From Rhodopirellula sp. P2 (GTDB lineage: Bacteria > Planctomycetota > Planctomycetia > Pirellulales > Pirellulaceae): a stretch of DNA of 64,000 bases. The DNA lies in NCBI RefSeq assembly GCF_028768465.1, contig NZ_CP118225.1:2337001-2401000 (forward strand), given 5' to 3'. Shown piece after piece: positions 53,553 to 62,355 of this stretch. Position 1 is the first letter of the stretch. Every line of letters begins with the position of its first letter. Position numbers and translations under genes: made by a program. The notes under the pieces were generated by a model that was not told where the DNA came from, ran no database searches, and saw only the letters and a program-made list of their open reading frames with translations.

Positions 53553-54020
53553 TCATTCGAAAGACGAAAGCCGGCGAGGCGGCGGGACAGTCGAGTTTTT
53601 GCCTGACTCCACGGCAGGATCGCCGAAGTGCTCGTCCGCGGAATCGAATTCCGGGGTGCACACGATCAAGACCTCCATTTTTCCCACCGCACGGTGTTTG
53701 ACCCGGGGAGGAATGAGAATGGACATCAGGGGACGGACGGGATGAAGTTCGCCATCGAGCTCAATGGCCGCATCCGGATCGCATTTCAAGATCACGTAAA
53801 TCTCGGTGTGATCGCGATGGAAGTGTGATTGGGCGTCCAGACTGATTTGAGTCAGATGCAATGTGCCTGGGAAATGGGGCGAGTCCGCGAAGGCGCGTCG
53901 GGCCTGTCCACAGGGGCACTCGACTGGTTCGATTCGCGTCAAATCCACGAGTTCAGGTTGGGAGGGGCCGGGGGTGGCCCGTTGGTTCGCCGGATTCGCG
54001 TGCATTCGTTTGGGTTTCAT
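53553..54020 (-). CDS. Small cupin protein
   Basis: 155 residues from the ATG at 54020 (GTG at 54047 and ATG at 54005 are alternatives). The cupin motif 1 is HFHRDHTEIYVIL and motif 2 is near PLMSILIPPRVKHRAVG, giving the usual His/Glu metal site. A Cys pair (ECPCG) lies before the barrel. It has no signal. Substrate or regulatory role cannot be told. Confidence 0.78.
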   Translation of the reverse strand: MKPKRMHANPANQRATPGPSQPELVDLTRIEPVECPCGQARRAFADSPHFPGTLHLTQISLDAQSHFHRDHTEIYVILKCDPDAAIELDGELHPVRPLMSILIPPRVKHRAVGKMEVLIVCTPEFDSADEHFGDPAVESGKNSTVPPPRRLSSFE

Positions 54021-54638
54021 GACGGCGCGTTCCACGACGGAAGCCACTCGATTTGAGCCGCTGTTACCGCCACGAGGGGGTGATTCTGTCAGTCTGAATC
54101 GATTAAACGCATCGTACCAAGGGATTGTTCAGGACGACCCATACCAGCCGAATAACCGCGTTGAAATTCCGCAAGCCGCAAACGTTAACAAGCTGACGAA
54201 AAAGGCTCAAACCACTGCATTGAAGCCTAGGTGTCGCCGATACGTTTGTTGTCCGACCGCTTGAGTCGGGTTTGAAATGCTCCCGGCATCGCAAGCTCGA
54301 TCCAACTCAAGTGACTCGGATGACCCAGAGATGCAGACAGCGGATGTCAGCATCTGGCAGATGTTTCTTCATCCAACGATTGAACTCATTTCACCATCGC
54401 CAGGAAGTCTGGCACGAATCGATAACGGATTTCAGAACTGAACGAAGTCAGCGGGCCAGGTGCTCGCACCTCGCTCGGTTTGTGTTCTGAAGTCTTTCCT
54501 CGGGGCTTGATCGTCGGCGACTTCGTCCGACGACCGTGTCCCCCGGACACAGATTCAATGGTGAGGTTGCAAAATCGCATGTGACGGATCACTGCCGACA
54601 ACTTCCCGCAACAATCTCGAGAGGGAGAATAATCTCCG
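54021..54638. other. Intergenic region upstream of the Cys-rich gene
   Basis: About 600 bp without a credible gene, between the divergent cupin and Cys-rich genes. It looks somewhat richer in A+T than its surroundings by eye (for example GTTAACAAGCTGACGAAAAAGG near 54185). No operator or RNA gene was recognised except the hairpin next to the Cys-rich start codon. Confidence 0.4.
54624..54637 (+). promoter_or_regulatory. Hairpin covering the ribosome site of the Cys-rich gene
   Basis: GGAGA-ATAA-TCTCC is a perfect 5-bp stem with a 4-nt loop ending one base before the ATG at 54639. The GAGGGAG ribosome site (54621-54627) overlaps the left arm, so folding would hide it. This could be a translation switch, or an accidental palindrome. 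Confidence 0.45.
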
Positions 54639-55490
54639 ATGAAGCGGACAATTTTAACACTGACGATGGTCGTAGCTAGTTCGGTTTGTACACAAGGCTT
54701 CGGCTTTGACCTGCTGGACCGAATGCTCGGCATGAAAGGCTGCGGCAGCTCAACAGCTTGCTGTGAAGCTCCTGCTTGTGAGCCTACTTGTGGTTTGGAA
54801 GCACCTTGCGGCGGTTGCGACAGCGACTGCGGATGTGCTCCTGCTTGCGAACCTGATTGTGGTTGCGAAGCCCCTTGTGGCGGTTGTGACTCCGGTTGTG
54901 GCTTGCTGAAGGGCAAACTGTTCGGCGGCTGCAACAGCTGTGCGGAACCAACTTGCGGTTGCGAAGTCGCTGATTGTGGCTGTGCACCTGCTTGCGAAGT
55001 CGCTTGCGAACCAGCTTGTGGTTGCGAAATCGCTTCTTGCGAACCTTCGTGCTGCGACAGCGGATGCAGCATTGGCAAGGGCGGCTTGCTGAGCAAGTTG
55101 TTCAAGGGCCACAAAGGTTGCAACAGCTGCTGCGAAGCTCCTTGTGAAGTCGCTTGCGAACCAGCTTGCGGTTGCGAAATCGCTTCTTGCGAACCTACCT
55201 GCTGCGACAGCGGATGTGACAGCGGATGCTGCACCATCGGCAAGGGCGGCCTGCTGAAGAAACTCTTCGGCAACTTGGGTTGCAAGAAGAGCAGCTGCTG
55301 TGACATGGGCTGCGACGCAGCTCCTTGTGACACCGGATGCGGATGTGGATCGACCTACGCCGCTCCTACTGCCGCACCAGTCGCTGCTCCTCACGCCGCT
55401 CCAATGCCACCTGCACCGATCGTTGATCCAAGTGCAAGCATTTCCCGTAATCGTCGCGTCATTCAGGCCAGTGCCAGCTACGTTCGCTGA
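54639..55490 (+). CDS. Exported cysteine-rich repeat protein (probable wall/surface protein)
   Basis: 283 residues with an N-terminal signal (MKRTILTLTMVVASSVCTQG). About 50 residues are Cys, mostly as CxxC, CC, CGC and EPxC units. A module of the form CEVACEPACGCEIASCEP is repeated, each copy ending in a basic amphipathic link: LLDRMLGMKGC, LLKGKLFGGCNSC, LLSKLFKGHKGCNSC, LLKKLFGNLGC. The C-terminal 50 residues are Ala/Pro-rich and Cys-free, ending NRRVIQASASYVR. Disulfide-rich protein walls are known in planctomycetes, and the export signal argues against a metallothionein. It ends at a shared terminator, convergent with the transglutaminase-like gene. Confidence 0.85.
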   Translation: MKRTILTLTMVVASSVCTQGFGFDLLDRMLGMKGCGSSTACCEAPACEPTCGLEAPCGGCDSDCGCAPACEPDCGCEAPCGGCDSGCGLLKGKLFGGCNSCAEPTCGCEVADCGCAPACEVACEPACGCEIASCEPSCCDSGCSIGKGGLLSKLFKGHKGCNSCCEAPCEVACEPACGCEIASCEPTCCDSGCDSGCCTIGKGGLLKKLFGNLGCKKSSCCDMGCDAAPCDTGCGCGSTYAAPTAAPVAAPHAAPMPPAPIVDPSASISRNRRVIQASASYVR

Positions 55491-55544: not shown

Positions 55545-55590
55545 AAAAACGCCTCGGCGAAGGGTAACCTTCTCCGGGGCGTTTTTTTTT
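55545..55590. terminator. Bidirectional rho-independent terminator
   Basis: AACGCCTCGGCGAAGG-GTAA-CCTTCTCCGGGGCGTT is a 16-bp stem with two imperfect pairs. It has a run of nine T on the right and five A on the left, so it works for transcripts from either side. It serves the convergent Cys-rich and transglutaminase-like genes. Confidence 0.88.
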
Positions 55591-55602: not shown

Positions 55603-55737
55603 CAGCTCTGACACTCACAGCTCTGACACTCACAGCTCTGGCACTCACAGCTCTGGCACTCACAGCTCTGGCACTCACAGCTCTGGCACTCACAGCTCTG
55701 GCACTCACAGCTCTGGCATCCGCAGCTCTGGCATCCG
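55603..55737. repeat. 15-bp tandem repeat array, nine units
   Basis: Units from left: CAGCTCTGACACTCA twice, CAGCTCTGGCACTCA five times, CAGCTCTGGCATCCG twice, then a partial unit running into the stop codon of the minus-strand gene. Units are adjacent with no spacers. Read on the minus strand the array stays in the frame of that gene past its TGA, coding pentapeptides AADAR, AVSAR and AVSVR up to a TAA at 55589-55591. Confidence 0.95.
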
Positions 55738-55741
55738 CAGC

Positions 55742-57730
55742 TCAGCCGCCACGAATGACCGCGTAGATGCTGATCTGCATTCGCGAGAGTTTGTCGATGA
55801 ATGCCTCGATCAACTCAATCGGATCGATGTCTTTCATGTCAGTGGTCTCAATTGCCAAGCAATCCGGTTGGGTTTCGGTGCCAGCGACAGGGTCCAACGA
55901 GATCCATTGGTCGTCGACTTTTGCCACCACCCAGGCGTGATAGACAAAGCGGTTGCCGTCGGGAAGGCGAGCCCGGGTTTGGAATGGCAAGGCGATGTCA
56001 CGGTTGGGGGCAACGTGGTCGGCGGATTGGTACCGAATTCCCAAGGCCATTCGGGAGGGGATCCCCGCGGAACGCAACAGCGCCATCAGCAGAATGGACT
56101 GCTCGGTGCTGTCTGCCGTTGATGAGTCGGCAATTTGGCTGGCCGCACGCATGCCTTGCGACAGCGGTTGGAACGAGAGCAAGGAGTGAACGGTGCGGTT
56201 CATCTCCATCGCTCGTTCTGCCAGCGTGAAATCGGGGCTGTTGGCGGTTGCGTTGGCAATGCGGCGAACCGTGGCGGAGCGATAATCGACCAACGAAGTT
56301 GCGGCCAAGTCAGCGGGGGTGCTCTCGCCTCCGAATTGATCAAAGCGATCGCGAAGCTTGGAAGCTGGAACCGGGGTCCGGGAAACGATCAGCTTTTGCT
56401 GTGCTTGGTCACCGTTGCGGCGAAGGTACTGACGGGGAGCCAGAGCGATCTGATTGTCTTGGTTGTCCGCTGATGGTTCTGGTTCGTTTGCCTCGCCAGG
56501 TGGATCCGCTGCCACGGACTCGGGCGCGGGTGGTTTGGCCCAGATGATTTCGTAGCCGACCTGCTGGAGGTCACCCGCCAACAAACTCGCTTCGGTCTCA
56601 AGCGGTTTGCCCTGCACTTGCAAGGCAATCGGATAGTCTTGGCGGAGGAATTCTTGCCCCAGCAGTTTGTATTGCGAGGCATTGCACCCGTACGAAAATC
56701 GTTGTTCGTTGGCGACGTGGTAGAGCTGGACCTGGCCCTGATCGTCGAACCAATAAACGCTTTCGCGTTGTCGTTGGGGCCCCAGTGACAACAGGCAAGA
56801 TGCTTCCTGCAGCACGACTTCTTGGAATCCCTGCGGTGTCAGGACAGAGGGCGATGCGAGCGAGTTGTGTTGCAGTCGAAGGGTTGCCACTTCCCCCAGG
56901 ATTGGAAGCAAGACATTGGCTTCGCGAATTTCACCTTCTTGCAACGGTTTTCGGCGCAAGGTTTGGTAGACGTGCAGCGGGCCGCCCAAAGGTGAATGGA
57001 TTGGCAGCGTCTTCTTCTTGGTTGCGACCAAGCGGTTGTCAACGAACTGGACTTCGTTGGCGGTGATCTCGATCGTGCGATGTGATTCGATCGGTCCACG
57101 TCGAAACGTGCAGTCCACCTTCTTCAGATTGCCATTGGCATCGTGCCAGAACGTTTGCTGATTGGATTCAAGGATTTGCAACATGCCGCGATAGGTCAGC
57201 CCTTGTTCTTCCAACTCGACCTTGATCTCGTTGTCCGCGGTCCGAGTGGACTTGGCGTGAATGCCGCCCAGAATGGTCGAGCGCAGGCTGTGAATTTGCC
57301 ACGACTCCCATTCGTCGGCGAGTCGGTTTTCGATCGTTCCGGCGGAGGCTTGCGAATGGGGTTTGCCTGAAACGGTTTCGATCGTGTTGGAGGGTGTCTG
57401 GTTGGGCGCGAGGATCTCTGGCATGCCGGATTGCCGCATCGCATCGGCGGCTGACGAGGGCCGCGCTGTGTTGCGTGCCTGGGAGGCAAACGAAGGCGTT
57501 GTTTCGGCCTGCCAAGGAGCAGGCTTTTCAAACGTCTGAATGTCGTATCGATCGGGCAAGTCGCAGCCGCTGGGGAGCAACGCCGCGGTCAGGCATGCCA
57601 GCGTGAACACTTTGCCAACTCGGTTTTTCTCAGCGTTTGAATCGCTGGGAAGAATCGATGAAAAGCCTGGGCAGGGCAAAGTACGAATGAAACGGGCCAA
57701 TGCCCGTCGGGATGCTGTTCGATCCATCAT
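55742..57730 (-). CDS. Transglutaminase-like lipoprotein with Ser at the catalytic Cys position
   Basis: 662 residues. After about 42 hydrophilic residues, a hydrophobic segment ends LLPSGC, a lipobox. A large middle region (about 130-400) has no motif I know. The C-terminal transglutaminase-like core has STEQSILLMALLRSAGIPSRMALG, in which Ser541 takes the place of the Cys in the usual DCTEHA-type block, then YHAWVV (His598) and SLDPVAG (Asp613). The His/Asp pair is thus kept but the nucleophile is not a Cys. It is anchored in a membrane facing the periplasm or wall. The frame is intact. Confidence 0.8.
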   Translation of the reverse strand: MMDRTASRRALARFIRTLPCPGFSSILPSDSNAEKNRVGKVFTLACLTAALLPSGCDLPDRYDIQTFEKPAPWQAETTPSFASQARNTARPSSAADAMRQSGMPEILAPNQTPSNTIETVSGKPHSQASAGTIENRLADEWESWQIHSLRSTILGGIHAKSTRTADNEIKVELEEQGLTYRGMLQILESNQQTFWHDANGNLKKVDCTFRRGPIESHRTIEITANEVQFVDNRLVATKKKTLPIHSPLGGPLHVYQTLRRKPLQEGEIREANVLLPILGEVATLRLQHNSLASPSVLTPQGFQEVVLQEASCLLSLGPQRQRESVYWFDDQGQVQLYHVANEQRFSYGCNASQYKLLGQEFLRQDYPIALQVQGKPLETEASLLAGDLQQVGYEIIWAKPPAPESVAADPPGEANEPEPSADNQDNQIALAPRQYLRRNGDQAQQKLIVSRTPVPASKLRDRFDQFGGESTPADLAATSLVDYRSATVRRIANATANSPDFTLAERAMEMNRTVHSLLSFQPLSQGMRAASQIADSSTADSTEQSILLMALLRSAGIPSRMALGIRYQSADHVAPNRDIALPFQTRARLPDGNRFVYHAWVVAKVDDQWISLDPVAGTETQPDCLAIETTDMKDIDPIELIEAFIDKLSRMQISIYAVIRGG

Positions 57731-58831: not shown

Positions 58832-59800
58832 TCAGTGAGTTGTGGTCAATCCGACTGCGATCACCAGCGTACCTACGACTGATTCAGGAATTGCACGGAA
58901 AGTGGTTTCCGTTCCAGTTCGAGCCAGCTTGTCACGGACGCTTTGTGTGAACGCGGGTTGATGAATCAGCACGCTGCCGGTTCCAGCCAACGCGCACGGA
59001 TGGTTTGACATGCCAAGGCGATCGACCAGCGTGTGCACCATCTCGGCGAGATCCGTCGAAGCTTGATCAAGGATCTGCATCGCGACCGGATCGCCAGAGC
59101 TTGCGACCTCGAAAACGAGTGGTGCAAGCGAGGCGATCGCGACTCGGTTGTTCGAGTCGGTGTAGAGGATGGGAATCAATTCACTGGCCGTTGTGATCCC
59201 GTGGTGTTCCAGCAAACGCTGGTGCAGTTGTGTGGTGGGGCCACGCCCATCGTCGGCGCGAACGGCAGCACGCAGAGCCGAGAGAGAAATCTGATAGCCA
59301 CTGCCTTCATCGCCCAGCAAGCTTCCCCATCCGCCGCATCTCGCTGTCTGGCCCTCGGCGTTCCGGCCCAGTGCCAACGACCCGGTGCCCGCGATCAAGG
59401 CGATGCCGATCCCATCTTCCGCGGCGGCATACAGGACTGGCAATGCGTCATCGACGACCGCCAGGCGGTTCGCCAGTTGACGTTGATTCGCCCATGACCG
59501 AATCCGTTGTTGTTCGGTGTTTCGACCGGCACCGGCGAGCGCCAAACAGGCACGGTCCACAGGGACTCGGGGGATTTCTGCATCGGCAAAGGCATCCTCG
59601 ACTGCCCGATCCAAGTTGCCCAGCGCGGTTTCAAAGCCGACGCGACGGACATTGGAGGAACCCGCGCGTCCACGACCAATCGTTTCGATTGTGTTGGAAA
59701 TCGCGGTGCGATGATCGGTGAAGTCACACCGCGCCAGCCACGCGACGGTTTTGGTACCGCCCCCGTCGATTCCCAGCACGAGTCCGGTGGGCGTGTTCAT
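58832..59800 (-). CDS. BadF/BadG-type sugar kinase (N-acetylglucosamine/N-acetylmuramate kinase-like)
   Basis: 322 residues of the ASKHA fold. Phosphate 1 motif is GIDGGGTKT (10-18), phosphate 2 is AGTGSLALG, and GGWGSLLGDEGSGY is the typical BadF-type loop. The family includes MurK of Clostridium, which phosphorylates MurNAc and GlcNAc at C6. The start ATG overlaps the murQ TGA by 4 bp (ATGA), so the two are translated together. Coupling to the MurNAc-6-phosphate etherase strongly suggests MurNAc as a substrate; that is inference. Confidence 0.87.
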   Translation of the reverse strand: MNTPTGLVLGIDGGGTKTVAWLARCDFTDHRTAISNTIETIGRGRAGSSNVRRVGFETALGNLDRAVEDAFADAEIPRVPVDRACLALAGAGRNTEQQRIRSWANQRQLANRLAVVDDALPVLYAAAEDGIGIALIAGTGSLALGRNAEGQTARCGGWGSLLGDEGSGYQISLSALRAAVRADDGRGPTTQLHQRLLEHHGITTASELIPILYTDSNNRVAIASLAPLVFEVASSGDPVAMQILDQASTDLAEMVHTLVDRLGMSNHPCALAGTGSVLIHQPAFTQSVRDKLARTGTETTFRAIPESVVGTLVIAVGLTTTH

Positions 59801-60696
59801 TCCGGGGAAGACACTCGCAAGCGACTCAGGTGCCCATCCACGCCAGCCAACTGTCGTCGCGCCGTTTGTGGGGAGACGTCACGCATGTGAACGACGATGG
59901 CTGTTTTGACTTCGCCCTCACATCGGTGCAGCAATTGTTCAGCTTGCTCAATTGGGATCCCCACGATCTCGGAAAGCATTTGCCGCGATCTTGCGACCAG
60001 CTTTTCGTTGGTTGCGCGGACGTCGACCATGCGATTGCCGTACGTCTTGCCGATCCGAATCATGGCTCCGGTCGTCAACATGTTGAGCACCATCTTGGTG
60101 GCCGTTCCCGCTTTCAACCGGGTGGATCCGCTGACCACTTCCGGACCCACCACCGGTGCGATCATGATTTGGGAGAGCGGTCGCAATTGGCAGTTTGGAT
60201 TGCAACTCAGTCCCACCGTCACAGCGCCAACGGATCGGGCGTATTGCAATCCGCCGATGACGTAGGGGGTCCGTCCGCTGGTGGCGATGCCCACCAACAC
60301 ATCGTTGTCGGACAGCTTGATTTCAGCCAAGTCACGCTTCGCAAATTCCGGATGGTCTTCGGCCCCTTCAATCGCACGGGTCAGAGCCTCGGGGCCTCCG
60401 GCGATCACACCAACGACCATTTCAGGCGGCGTTCGGAACGTCGGTGGGCATTCGCTGGCGTCCAGCACTCCCAAGCGACCGGACGTGCCAGCACCCAGAT
60501 AAACCAATCGCCCGTTGGAGCGGAATTTGTCCGCGATCACGTCCACCGCCTCCGCAATCCTTTCGGCCTGCGTGTTCACGGCGGCCGCGATCAGTGCGTC
60601 TTGTTGGTTGATCAACTGAACAATTTGCAACGCCGACAAAGAATCGATCTGGGCAGATGCCGGGTTGCTGGCTTCCGTGGTCAATTGATTCAGCAT
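59797..60696 (-). CDS. murQ: N-acetylmuramic acid 6-phosphate etherase
   Basis: 299 residues from the ATG at 60696; the frame is open further upstream to 61458 but that part is antisense to the symporter. The SIS-fold signature is exact: LGAGTSGRLGVLDASECPPT with the catalytic-type Glu82, then GIATSGRTPYV and GSTRLKAGTATKMVLN. It splits the lactyl ether of MurNAc-6-phosphate to give GlcNAc-6-phosphate and lactate. First gene of a murQ-kinase pair, divergent from the symporter. Confidence 0.95.
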   Translation of the reverse strand: MLNQLTTEASNPASAQIDSLSALQIVQLINQQDALIAAAVNTQAERIAEAVDVIADKFRSNGRLVYLGAGTSGRLGVLDASECPPTFRTPPEMVVGVIAGGPEALTRAIEGAEDHPEFAKRDLAEIKLSDNDVLVGIATSGRTPYVIGGLQYARSVGAVTVGLSCNPNCQLRPLSQIMIAPVVGPEVVSGSTRLKAGTATKMVLNMLTTGAMIRIGKTYGNRMVDVRATNEKLVARSRQMLSEIVGIPIEQAEQLLHRCEGEVKTAIVVHMRDVSPQTARRQLAGVDGHLSRLRVSSPE

Positions 60697-60831
60697 GGTG
60701 GATGGTTTCGCATGTGTGATTTCCCTGACCGCAACAAAACTGATCGCATCAAAATACAGTAAGGTAGCCGCACCGGTCAGGCGAGGCGGATTCACGGCAC
60801 AAAATCGACTACAGCACACGAGACTCGACAC
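60697..60831. promoter_or_regulatory. Divergent promoter region of the MurNAc salvage units
   Basis: These 135 bp separate murQ from the symporter gene and must drive both directions. An A+T-rich patch (GATCGCATCAAAATACAGTAAGG, about 60748-60770) is a plausible promoter core. No clear operator palindrome was found. Confidence 0.4.
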
Positions 60832-62355
60832 TTGGCTATCAGCTCCTTTGACCTTGCCGTTCTGGTCATCTACATGCTCGCGATGGTTGGCTTTGGTCTC
60901 TGGGTCGGACGGGACCAGAAGGACTTGGCCGGTTACTTGCTGGGCGGACGTGACATGCCCTGGTGGTCGATCTTGGGGTCGATCGTCGCAACGGAAACCA
61001 GCACCGCGACTTTTTTGAGCGTGCCCGGGATCGCGTTTGCGGTCGACGGTGACATGCGGTTTCTGCAGTTGGGAATGGGGTTGGTCATTGGCCGCTTGAT
61101 CGTGGCGGTCGTGTTGGTGCCCCTGTTTCGCCGCGGTGAAATCTACTCGGCCTATGAAATTCTGGCGACGCGGTTTGGTGACTCCAGCAAACGGTTTGCA
61201 TCGTTGTTGTTCTTGGTCACCCGGAATTTGGGCGACGGTTTGCGGCTGTTCTTGGCCGGCATCGCGTTGGAGAAGGTGCTCAGCGTTGACCTTGTCAGCT
61301 GCATTGTGATCTTGGGGGCCTTCACGATCGTCTACACGTTCTTTGGTGGAATCAAAGCTGTGATCTGGAGCGACTGCATTCAGTTGGTCGTTTACATGGT
61401 CGGTGGGGTGCTGTCGTTGCTGATCCTGGTCCACTATTTCCCGGGTGGTTGGCAGCAACTGGTCGAGTTCGGCCAGGAGACCGGGCGTTTTCAGGTCTTC
61501 GATTTTCGCTGGCGATCAACCGGCACGTTCAGTGTGCTGACGGAACCGTTCACGTTCTGGTCGGGAGTCATCGGCGGTGCGGTGTTGACGCTGGGGACAC
61601 ACGGGACCGATCAAATGATTGTCCAACGTTACCTGGCCGCGCGGAGCACCTTGGATGCACAGCGTGCCGTGGTTGCCAGCGGCGTGGTCGTGCTGATCCA
61701 GTTCGCTTTGTTCTTGTTGCTGGGGGTTGCTTTGGCTGGCTTCTACTCGCAGATTCATCCGCGGGCGTTTGACCACAATGACGAGGTGTTTGCCGCGTTC
61801 ATCGTGGACTACCTGCCGGTTGGCTTGGTCGGCATCACCTTGGCAGCTGTGTTTGCAGCAGCCATGTCCACGTTGTCCAGTTCGTTGAATTCCTCAGCGT
61901 CTGCGGCGGTCTCGGATTTCTATCGACCTTGGTTGCGTTCTCGGAGCAATGGCTCGGCGCACAAGGATGCCGACGATGAAATGTCTGGCAGTGACGCGTC
62001 CGGCAACCTGCTTCGAGTCAGCCGCCGACTGACCGTTGTTTTTGGTGTGATCCAGATCGCGATTGGCATCGGTGCGAGCTACCTTTCGAGCAGTGTCATC
62101 AGCGATGCACTCGCGATCGCGGGCTTCACCGCGGGGATCTTGTTGGGCGTGTTCCTGCTCGGGATCTTGACCGCGTCAGCCCACCAACGCGGTGCCCTGG
62201 TCGGGATGGTGACCGGCATGGCTGTGCTCACCGCGATCAAGTTTGCGACGTCCGTCGCGTGGCCATGGTTGGCGATCATCGGCTCGCTCACCACCTTCGG
62301 TTCAGGGTACATTGCCAGTCGCTTGATTCCTGCGGGGCAGCAACCGGATGATTGA
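60832..62355 (+). CDS. Sodium:solute symporter (SSS family)
   Basis: 507 residues starting at TTG 60832; the first ATG in frame lies inside the first membrane helix, so a non-ATG start is likely. About 13 helices. GGRDMPWWSILGSIVATET matches the sodium-binding first helices of the family, and LSSSLNSSASAAVSDFY is the later SSS signature. It should import a small solute with Na+. The place between murQ and a NamZ-type gene suggests MurNAc, a GlcNAc-MurNAc sugar or another wall fragment. Confidence 0.88.
   Translation: MAISSFDLAVLVIYMLAMVGFGLWVGRDQKDLAGYLLGGRDMPWWSILGSIVATETSTATFLSVPGIAFAVDGDMRFLQLGMGLVIGRLIVAVVLVPLFRRGEIYSAYEILATRFGDSSKRFASLLFLVTRNLGDGLRLFLAGIALEKVLSVDLVSCIVILGAFTIVYTFFGGIKAVIWSDCIQLVVYMVGGVLSLLILVHYFPGGWQQLVEFGQETGRFQVFDFRWRSTGTFSVLTEPFTFWSGVIGGAVLTLGTHGTDQMIVQRYLAARSTLDAQRAVVASGVVVLIQFALFLLLGVALAGFYSQIHPRAFDHNDEVFAAFIVDYLPVGLVGITLAAVFAAAMSTLSSSLNSSASAAVSDFYRPWLRSRSNGSAHKDADDEMSGSDASGNLLRVSRRLTVVFGVIQIAIGIGASYLSSSVISDALAIAGFTAGILLGVFLLGILTASAHQRGALVGMVTGMAVLTAIKFATSVAWPWLAIIGSLTTFGSGYIASRLIPAGQQPDD

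Follow-up and report, generated by a model that had tools for sequence, protein, structure and literature searches.

The gene at positions 54639-55490 on the forward strand of the window, the 64,000-nucleotide stretch of Rhodopirellula sp. P2 DNA analysed here (source genome 7.29 Mb, a single contig), encodes a Cys-rich protein of 283 residues plus a stop codon, and on balance we favour the view that its product is secreted and serves as a structural component of the cell envelope in planctomycetes, cross-linked through disulfides. Almost all sampled genomes of one order carry the gene, and its product has the makeup of a disulfide matrix protein, which makes it a concrete and testable wall candidate.

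The frame is a real gene under purifying selection. Pairwise comparison with five close orthologues gives pN/pS values of 0.07-0.20 over the whole gene, and among the six orthologues all 47 Cys columns in the 209 ungapped core columns are invariant at the protein level, with a synonymous codon change in 15 of them; 23 of the 162 non-Cys core columns vary. The N-terminal head shows no amino-acid change in four of the five orthologue comparisons and the C-terminal tail none in any of the five. Purifying selection on the orthologues, their unchanging Cys and the return of the same architecture in 97 further distinct members (98 when the window protein is counted) show the module pattern to be more than a product of chance. 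The first-pass annotation of this DNA had the coordinates, the strand and the length right, and its "about 50 Cys" agrees with the 50 that we count, 49 of them after the signal peptide. An antisense open reading frame (54386-55333, 315 residues) overlaps the gene; it was treated as spurious and is best read as a by-product. Downstream, a hairpin followed by T9 at 55549-55590 (+), seen by eye and absent from the terminator scan output, is a possible intrinsic terminator.

In overall layout, a conserved head and a conserved C-terminal tail frame a core that is remade lineage by lineage. The alignment behind this description holds 37 members, the window protein and 36 others; the contig-end fragment L047 and L064 of the 38 loci L034-L071 were left out, and L073 (a fragment), L072 (no such frame), L143 and L166-L170 were likewise kept out of the member set. 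A motif rule, the alignment and a model helix over residues 2-17 together delimit a signal peptide of 22 residues (54639-54704, +), with a proposed cleavage between QGFG and FDLL. The signal peptide claimed in the earlier reading is thus apparent, at 22 residues in 35 of the 37 aligned members by the motif rule, and ANA, ASA, SYA or SFA precedes the same point in several of the loci L145-L158, which supports the proposed cleavage site; the product is probably exported. The idea of a lipoprotein was rejected, as Cys17 of the signal peptide is Ser in 6 of the 37 members (L055, L058, L059, L060, L063 and L065) and the position before it usually holds V, L, I or M. The signal peptide is followed by the head motif FDLLDRMLG (54705-54731, +); across the 37 sequences G22, L25 and L26 are invariant and R28, M29, L30 and G31 stand at 90% or more. 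The window protein carries both the signal peptide and the LLDRMLG head by which we recognise this head/tail Cys-repeat family.

The variable core (54747-55397, +), delimited by alignment and repeat analysis, comprises 217 residues with 48 Cys. Its units differ by lineage, with CEPACGCE in the window protein, CCEPTCCEPTCC in L041, AKPACGCEAKPAGC in L054 and DPKCGVDPKC in L058; the Cys share of the core ranges over 12-36% in the 37 members, the lowest density of about 12% being that of L058 and L065, and core length varies even between close orthologues, L036-L038 having 17-21 additional residues between linkers 2 and 3. A near-duplicated module had been reported, and indeed CEVACEPACGCEIASCEP occurs exactly twice, within a pair of 88-nt copies (54979-55066 and 55129-55216, +; repeat pair D3) that DNA repeat analysis places 150 nt apart at 91% identity. 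The gene also has a 65-nt repeat pair (78%), and five copies of a 40-nt unit make up a further repeat family.

The Cys blocks are separated by recurring LLxKLF-type linkers, which elsewhere appear as LLDRIF, LLDKLF or LFGGLKGLF. The window protein has three on the forward strand: LLKGKLF at 54903-54923, read from the sequence, LLSKLF at 55086-55103, in repeat family D6, and LLKKLF at 55251-55268, from the repeat analysis and with a short predicted helix at residues 205-213. The linkers noticed at first are present, but the exact pattern LLxKLFxGxxGC proposed for them fits one only, LLSKLFKGHKGC; of the other two, LLKKLFGNLGC falls short of it by one residue and LLKGKLFGGC does not follow it. 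In 56 of 99 cores (one of the 99 is a duplicate) some segment resembles the head more closely than anything in 95% of shuffled cores, and since the other 43 fall short of the shuffled 95% point, the notion that the linker may be a repeated head motif is suggestive only.

The C-terminal tail APMPPAPIVDPSASISRNRRVIQASASYVR (55398-55487, +), identified by alignment, profile and pattern, follows a family consensus of PPAPxVDPSA with a basic end, RRVxQASxxxVR, which the window protein also carries. The tail pattern was recognised in 92 of the 98 distinct members, two of the other six being cut by contig ends. We rejected the tail as a general sorting tag: a search gave a single match in this genome at E<=1 and one strong match in each of the other genus genomes, with extras in G003 (E 0.68) and G005 (E 0.49). 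The first-pass annotation mentioned neither the tail nor the likeness that many linkers bear to the head.

The absence of homologues beyond one strain had been set beforehand as a refuting test for that annotation; what we found is a member in 81 of the 87 sampled genomes of its own order, Pirellulales, when the head and full profiles are combined. The single-protein query matches 40 of 60 close genomes at E<=0.001 (its own included) and all 13 in the genus; the orthologue of G003 lies at C1:4048088-4048930. The head-profile search matches 81 of 297 class genomes at E<=0.01, comprising 75 of the 87 in the order and 6 of the 210 elsewhere, a split in which 196 misses were assigned outside the order because the genome list is sorted by kinship. 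It gave one match per matched genome, G038 excepted with two, with at most 26 candidates scored per genome so that a divergent second copy could be missed. Six of the 12 order misses (G190, G313, G042, G059, G207 and G231) have a member by the full profile and sequence reading, and the member of G052 (L159) is counted though it has no recognisable tail. The order genomes in which no member was detected are G297, G100, G115, G212, G253 and G303, and in G253 and G303 other Cys-containing frames were found instead (L258, L263). The modular, Cys-rich, planctomycete and probably exported character first proposed for the protein is thus supported.

Outside the order, the six class matches are weak, and five of them were examined as sequence (G075, G149, G266, G274 and G090, the sixth being G181). 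The matches in G075 and G149 (L167, L170) are Cys-rich and have a signal peptide, with the tail absent, the one in G266 (L169) is cut by a contig end, and those in G274 (L166) and G090 (L168) were rejected as unrelated proteins. L167, L170 and L278, together with the cut L169, start with MKWTTLTAAL and are Cys-rich without the PPAP tail; they occur in another family of the class (f22). With the full profile, 15 of 292 phylum genomes match at E<=0.001, of which 9 belong to the order, 5 lie elsewhere in the class and 1, G552, lies outside it (E 4.8e-4, by score only); this search missed two order genomes, G052 and G100. G046 was likewise matched by score only. Among the named matches listed, all are planctomycetes by title except one labelled "bacterium", and among the matches listed three labelled Candidatus Kuenenia and one labelled Planctomicrobium would fall outside the order if the labels are right; our guess is that these bins are mislabelled.

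The same genome holds a second Cys-repeat protein, termed here family B (G000:C1:6734677; a frame of 204 residues with 34 Cys), which has similar Cys units and linkers, a different signal peptide and an end in CGCGH, with no PPAP tail; 18 loci were examined (L074-L091, the last with a masked stretch). Its frame, L079 7480-8091, corresponds to G000:C1 at about 6734480-6735090, and family B-like frames occur in other order genomes (L258, L262, L264 and L265). The second Cys-rich protein of G038, L143, has a family-like signal peptide and a partial tail, with no LLDRMLG head.

The number of Cys in the mature protein ranges from 10 to 108 among the 98 distinct members (median 49.5; L113 and L164 are cut by contig ends). 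It is odd in 55 of the 98, so that not every Cys can lie in an intramolecular disulfide, although odd and even counts stand near 50% and the members are phylogenetically non-independent. Relative to shuffled sequences, Cys pairs in the 98 cores occur at 0.99x for d=1, 0.48x for d=2 (CxC), 0.30x for d=3 (CxxC), 1.30x for d=4, 1.32x for d=5 and 1.49x for d=6, and 51 reduced representatives give 0.98, 0.43, 0.38, 1.31, 1.34 and 1.41 over d=1-6. The depletion of CxC and CxxC argues against metal-ligand spacing or thioredoxin-type redox motifs. Trp and Tyr are nearly absent from the cores (2 and 46 of 20,363 residues in the 98 members), and Lys and Arg are few in the core. The genome encodes a VKOR domain joined to a Thioredoxin_4 domain (L297 1081-2838), with CPYC and CPHC motifs seen by eye and a DSBA match below the Pfam cut-off (20.5 vs 25.6 bits); it is a candidate oxidase of exported Cys proteins, and a search for DsbB in this genome gave no match. 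VKOR was found in 16 of 20 genomes. Three of the eight genomes tested for both (G037, G040 and G043) carry the Cys-rich gene yet give neither VKOR nor DsbB matches, and so the mechanism, if right, would call for other oxidants in these three.

The window protein has no Pfam or NCBIfam match up to E=10 and no match by sequence to solved structures up to E=1. The 37 members gave two weak NCBIfam matches, PRK04654 (2 members, best E 0.15) and PRK13386 (1 member, E 0.05), which we take as chance, and no description of the family turned up in the planctomycete literature at the level of search results. An AlphaFold model built on 26 sequences (pLDDT 48.7, pTM 0.17) has helices of at least four residues only at 2-17, 22-29 and 205-213 and no fold in the core; the absent fold counts as weak evidence, because the model rests on a shallow and repetitive alignment. 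The Cys-rich outer-membrane complex proteins of Chlamydiae, which belong to the same superphylum, embody the idea of a disulfide-linked envelope, and neither the window protein nor any of the 37 members matched a chlamydial model in Pfam or NCBIfam.

Among known systems, the YTV proteins (PF07639) share with this family a restriction to planctomycetes and a description as Cys-rich wall proteins (PMC8567305, PMC10632474, PMC5287468). A test of 20 genomes with the head/tail Cys-repeat family found YTV genes in every one, with 23 domain matches in this genome. Their head, tail and repeats differ from those of the window family, however, and the YTV domain is absent from the Pfam matches of the window protein (E<=10) and of the 37 members (E<=1); by sequence comparison, the window protein is not a YTV protein. 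The core may be likened to hair keratin-matrix proteins, being a fast-changing Cys repeat in a protein that is about one-sixth Cys. Keratin_B2 (PF13885/PF01500) likewise has CCxPx units in variable copy number, as in the CCVPX repeat of sheep KAP2 (PMC4929423); CCxPxCC occurs in 26 of the 98 members, and 7 of the 37 weakly match PF13885 (Keratin_B2_2; best E 1.3e-4). The L225 match, however, reaches only 17.6 bits vs a curated cut-off of 27, and the window protein itself is unmatched (E<=10), has no CCxPx and comes from a bacterium, its head and tail having no keratin counterpart; we take the likeness to high-sulfur keratin-associated proteins as convergence. CREMP of the eggshell membrane and SP75 of the slime-mould spore coat are also Cys repeats of disulfide-rich extracellular layers (PMC3068167); compared by description, their regular C-X4-C-X5-C-X8-C modules differ from the spacing of the window family.

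The planctomycete wall has been described as a proteinaceous sacculus containing disulfide bonds (PMC2754498), a disulfide-bonded protein wall having been reported since the 1980s (cited in PMC2754498). In Gemmata the wall withstands boiling 10% SDS, and YTV proteins are major constituents of it (PMC5287468). In the passages of two such papers drawn on here, the Cys-rich wall proteins named are YTV proteins, a lipoprotein also being high in one wall preparation (PMC8567305, PMC5287468). Peptidoglycan has since been detected in planctomycete walls (PMC10632474), and a protein network thus need not be the load-bearing part.

In the mechanism that we propose, the signal peptide would export the protein, which would be oxidised outside the cytoplasm, probably with the aid of the VKOR-thioredoxin fusion. 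The flexible core, with its Cys mostly as Cys-Cys or 4-6 residues apart, would then join neighbouring copies and other Cys proteins, the short amphipathic LLxKLF helices, many of them head-like, may act as hydrophobic spacers or points of self-association, and the conserved head and tail would hold the protein in position within the envelope. Selection would preserve the ends and the Cys density and leave the repeats free to change in sequence and number, much like the sulfur-rich matrix proteins of eukaryotes. Conserved ends around a drifting, Cys-dense and foldless middle suggest a job of export, placement and cross-linking.

A disulfide-linked structural role appears to be the best-supported reading, because the Cys are invariant in close orthologues, CxC and CxxC are depleted, no fold is predicted, Cys counts are often odd and a VKOR fusion is encoded; against it stand the Cys-Cys pairs, at chance level (0.99x), the low Cys density of L058 and L065 and the 6 of 87 order genomes without a detected copy. 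A bolder version, which we advance tentatively and with more doubt than belief, holds that one bacterial order has evolved a keratin-associated-like matrix, in which an order-defining disulfide-linked protein gives the wall much of its cystine and SDS resistance, with the paralogous family B as a second component and YTV proteins as partners. As a disulfide matrix protein, the candidate would also give bacteria a clear example of convergence on the high-sulfur structural repeats of eukaryotes. It is unlikely, in our estimate, that a protein of the same disulfide-linked kind serves a surface appendage or extracellular matrix (holdfast, crateriform structures or fibres) rather than the general wall. 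The signal peptide, Cys-rich core, drifting repeats and hydrophobic linkers would suit adhesive or matrix proteins equally, and the sessile stage of R. baltica makes a holdfast substance (PMC2754498), but a scan of seven neighbours in the window turned up no family of polysaccharide binding or export, and presence in so many genomes of the order favours a core envelope part over an appendage.

We regard as improbable an exported protein that would soak up Zn, Cu or Cd in the manner of a metallothionein, either in the periplasm or outside: the abundance of Cys (48 of the 217 residues of the core), the undepleted Cys-Cys pairs and the additional His of some members (17 in L063) would fit it, yet 29 of the 37 members have only 0-4 His, the protein has an apparent signal peptide in a genome encoding a disulfide oxidase, and none of the seven window neighbours scanned belongs to a metal-transport family. 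Metallothioneins space their Cys ligands as CxC and CxxC, the opposite of the depletion in the 98 cores. Still more remote, to the point of being very improbable, is a thiol reserve or redox buffer in which the Cys matter as reactive thiols rather than for a network; many Cys in a fast-drifting context with no fold could serve it, whereas the invariance of Cys positions in close orthologues, the conserved head and tail and the rarity of CxxC speak against it.

As for the surroundings of the gene, a cupin gene lies divergently upstream (53553-54047, -), and a cupin stands beside the family gene in 58 of 104 loci, on the opposite strand in 55 and on the same strand in 3, with 46 loci lacking it (counted over loci with at least 1.7 kb upstream, which partly repeat the same organisms; 10 more had too little). 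The window cupin has a Cupin_2 match below the Pfam cut-off (22.9 vs 27.2 bits) and an HxHxxxxE motif seen by eye, and two PQQ-propeller genes lie beyond the cupin in many loci. The transglutaminase-like neighbour downstream (55742-57730) finds no support as a partner, as it adjoins in 11 of 36 loci, those of the 11 genus members in the comparison; the cupin is better kept, yet suggests no mechanism. Between the gene and this neighbour lies a 15-bp tandem array of 8.7 copies (55603-55733), present at a single site in this genome, with its 11-mer core absent from five orthologous loci; a reverse-strand frame through it would encode CECQS repeats, though nothing marks that frame as a gene. Farther along, at 58832-61458 (-), a BadF/BadG-type ATPase adjoins a SIS-domain protein (Pfam: SIS, GKRP), and the two look like a sugar-kinase and MurQ-like etherase pair.
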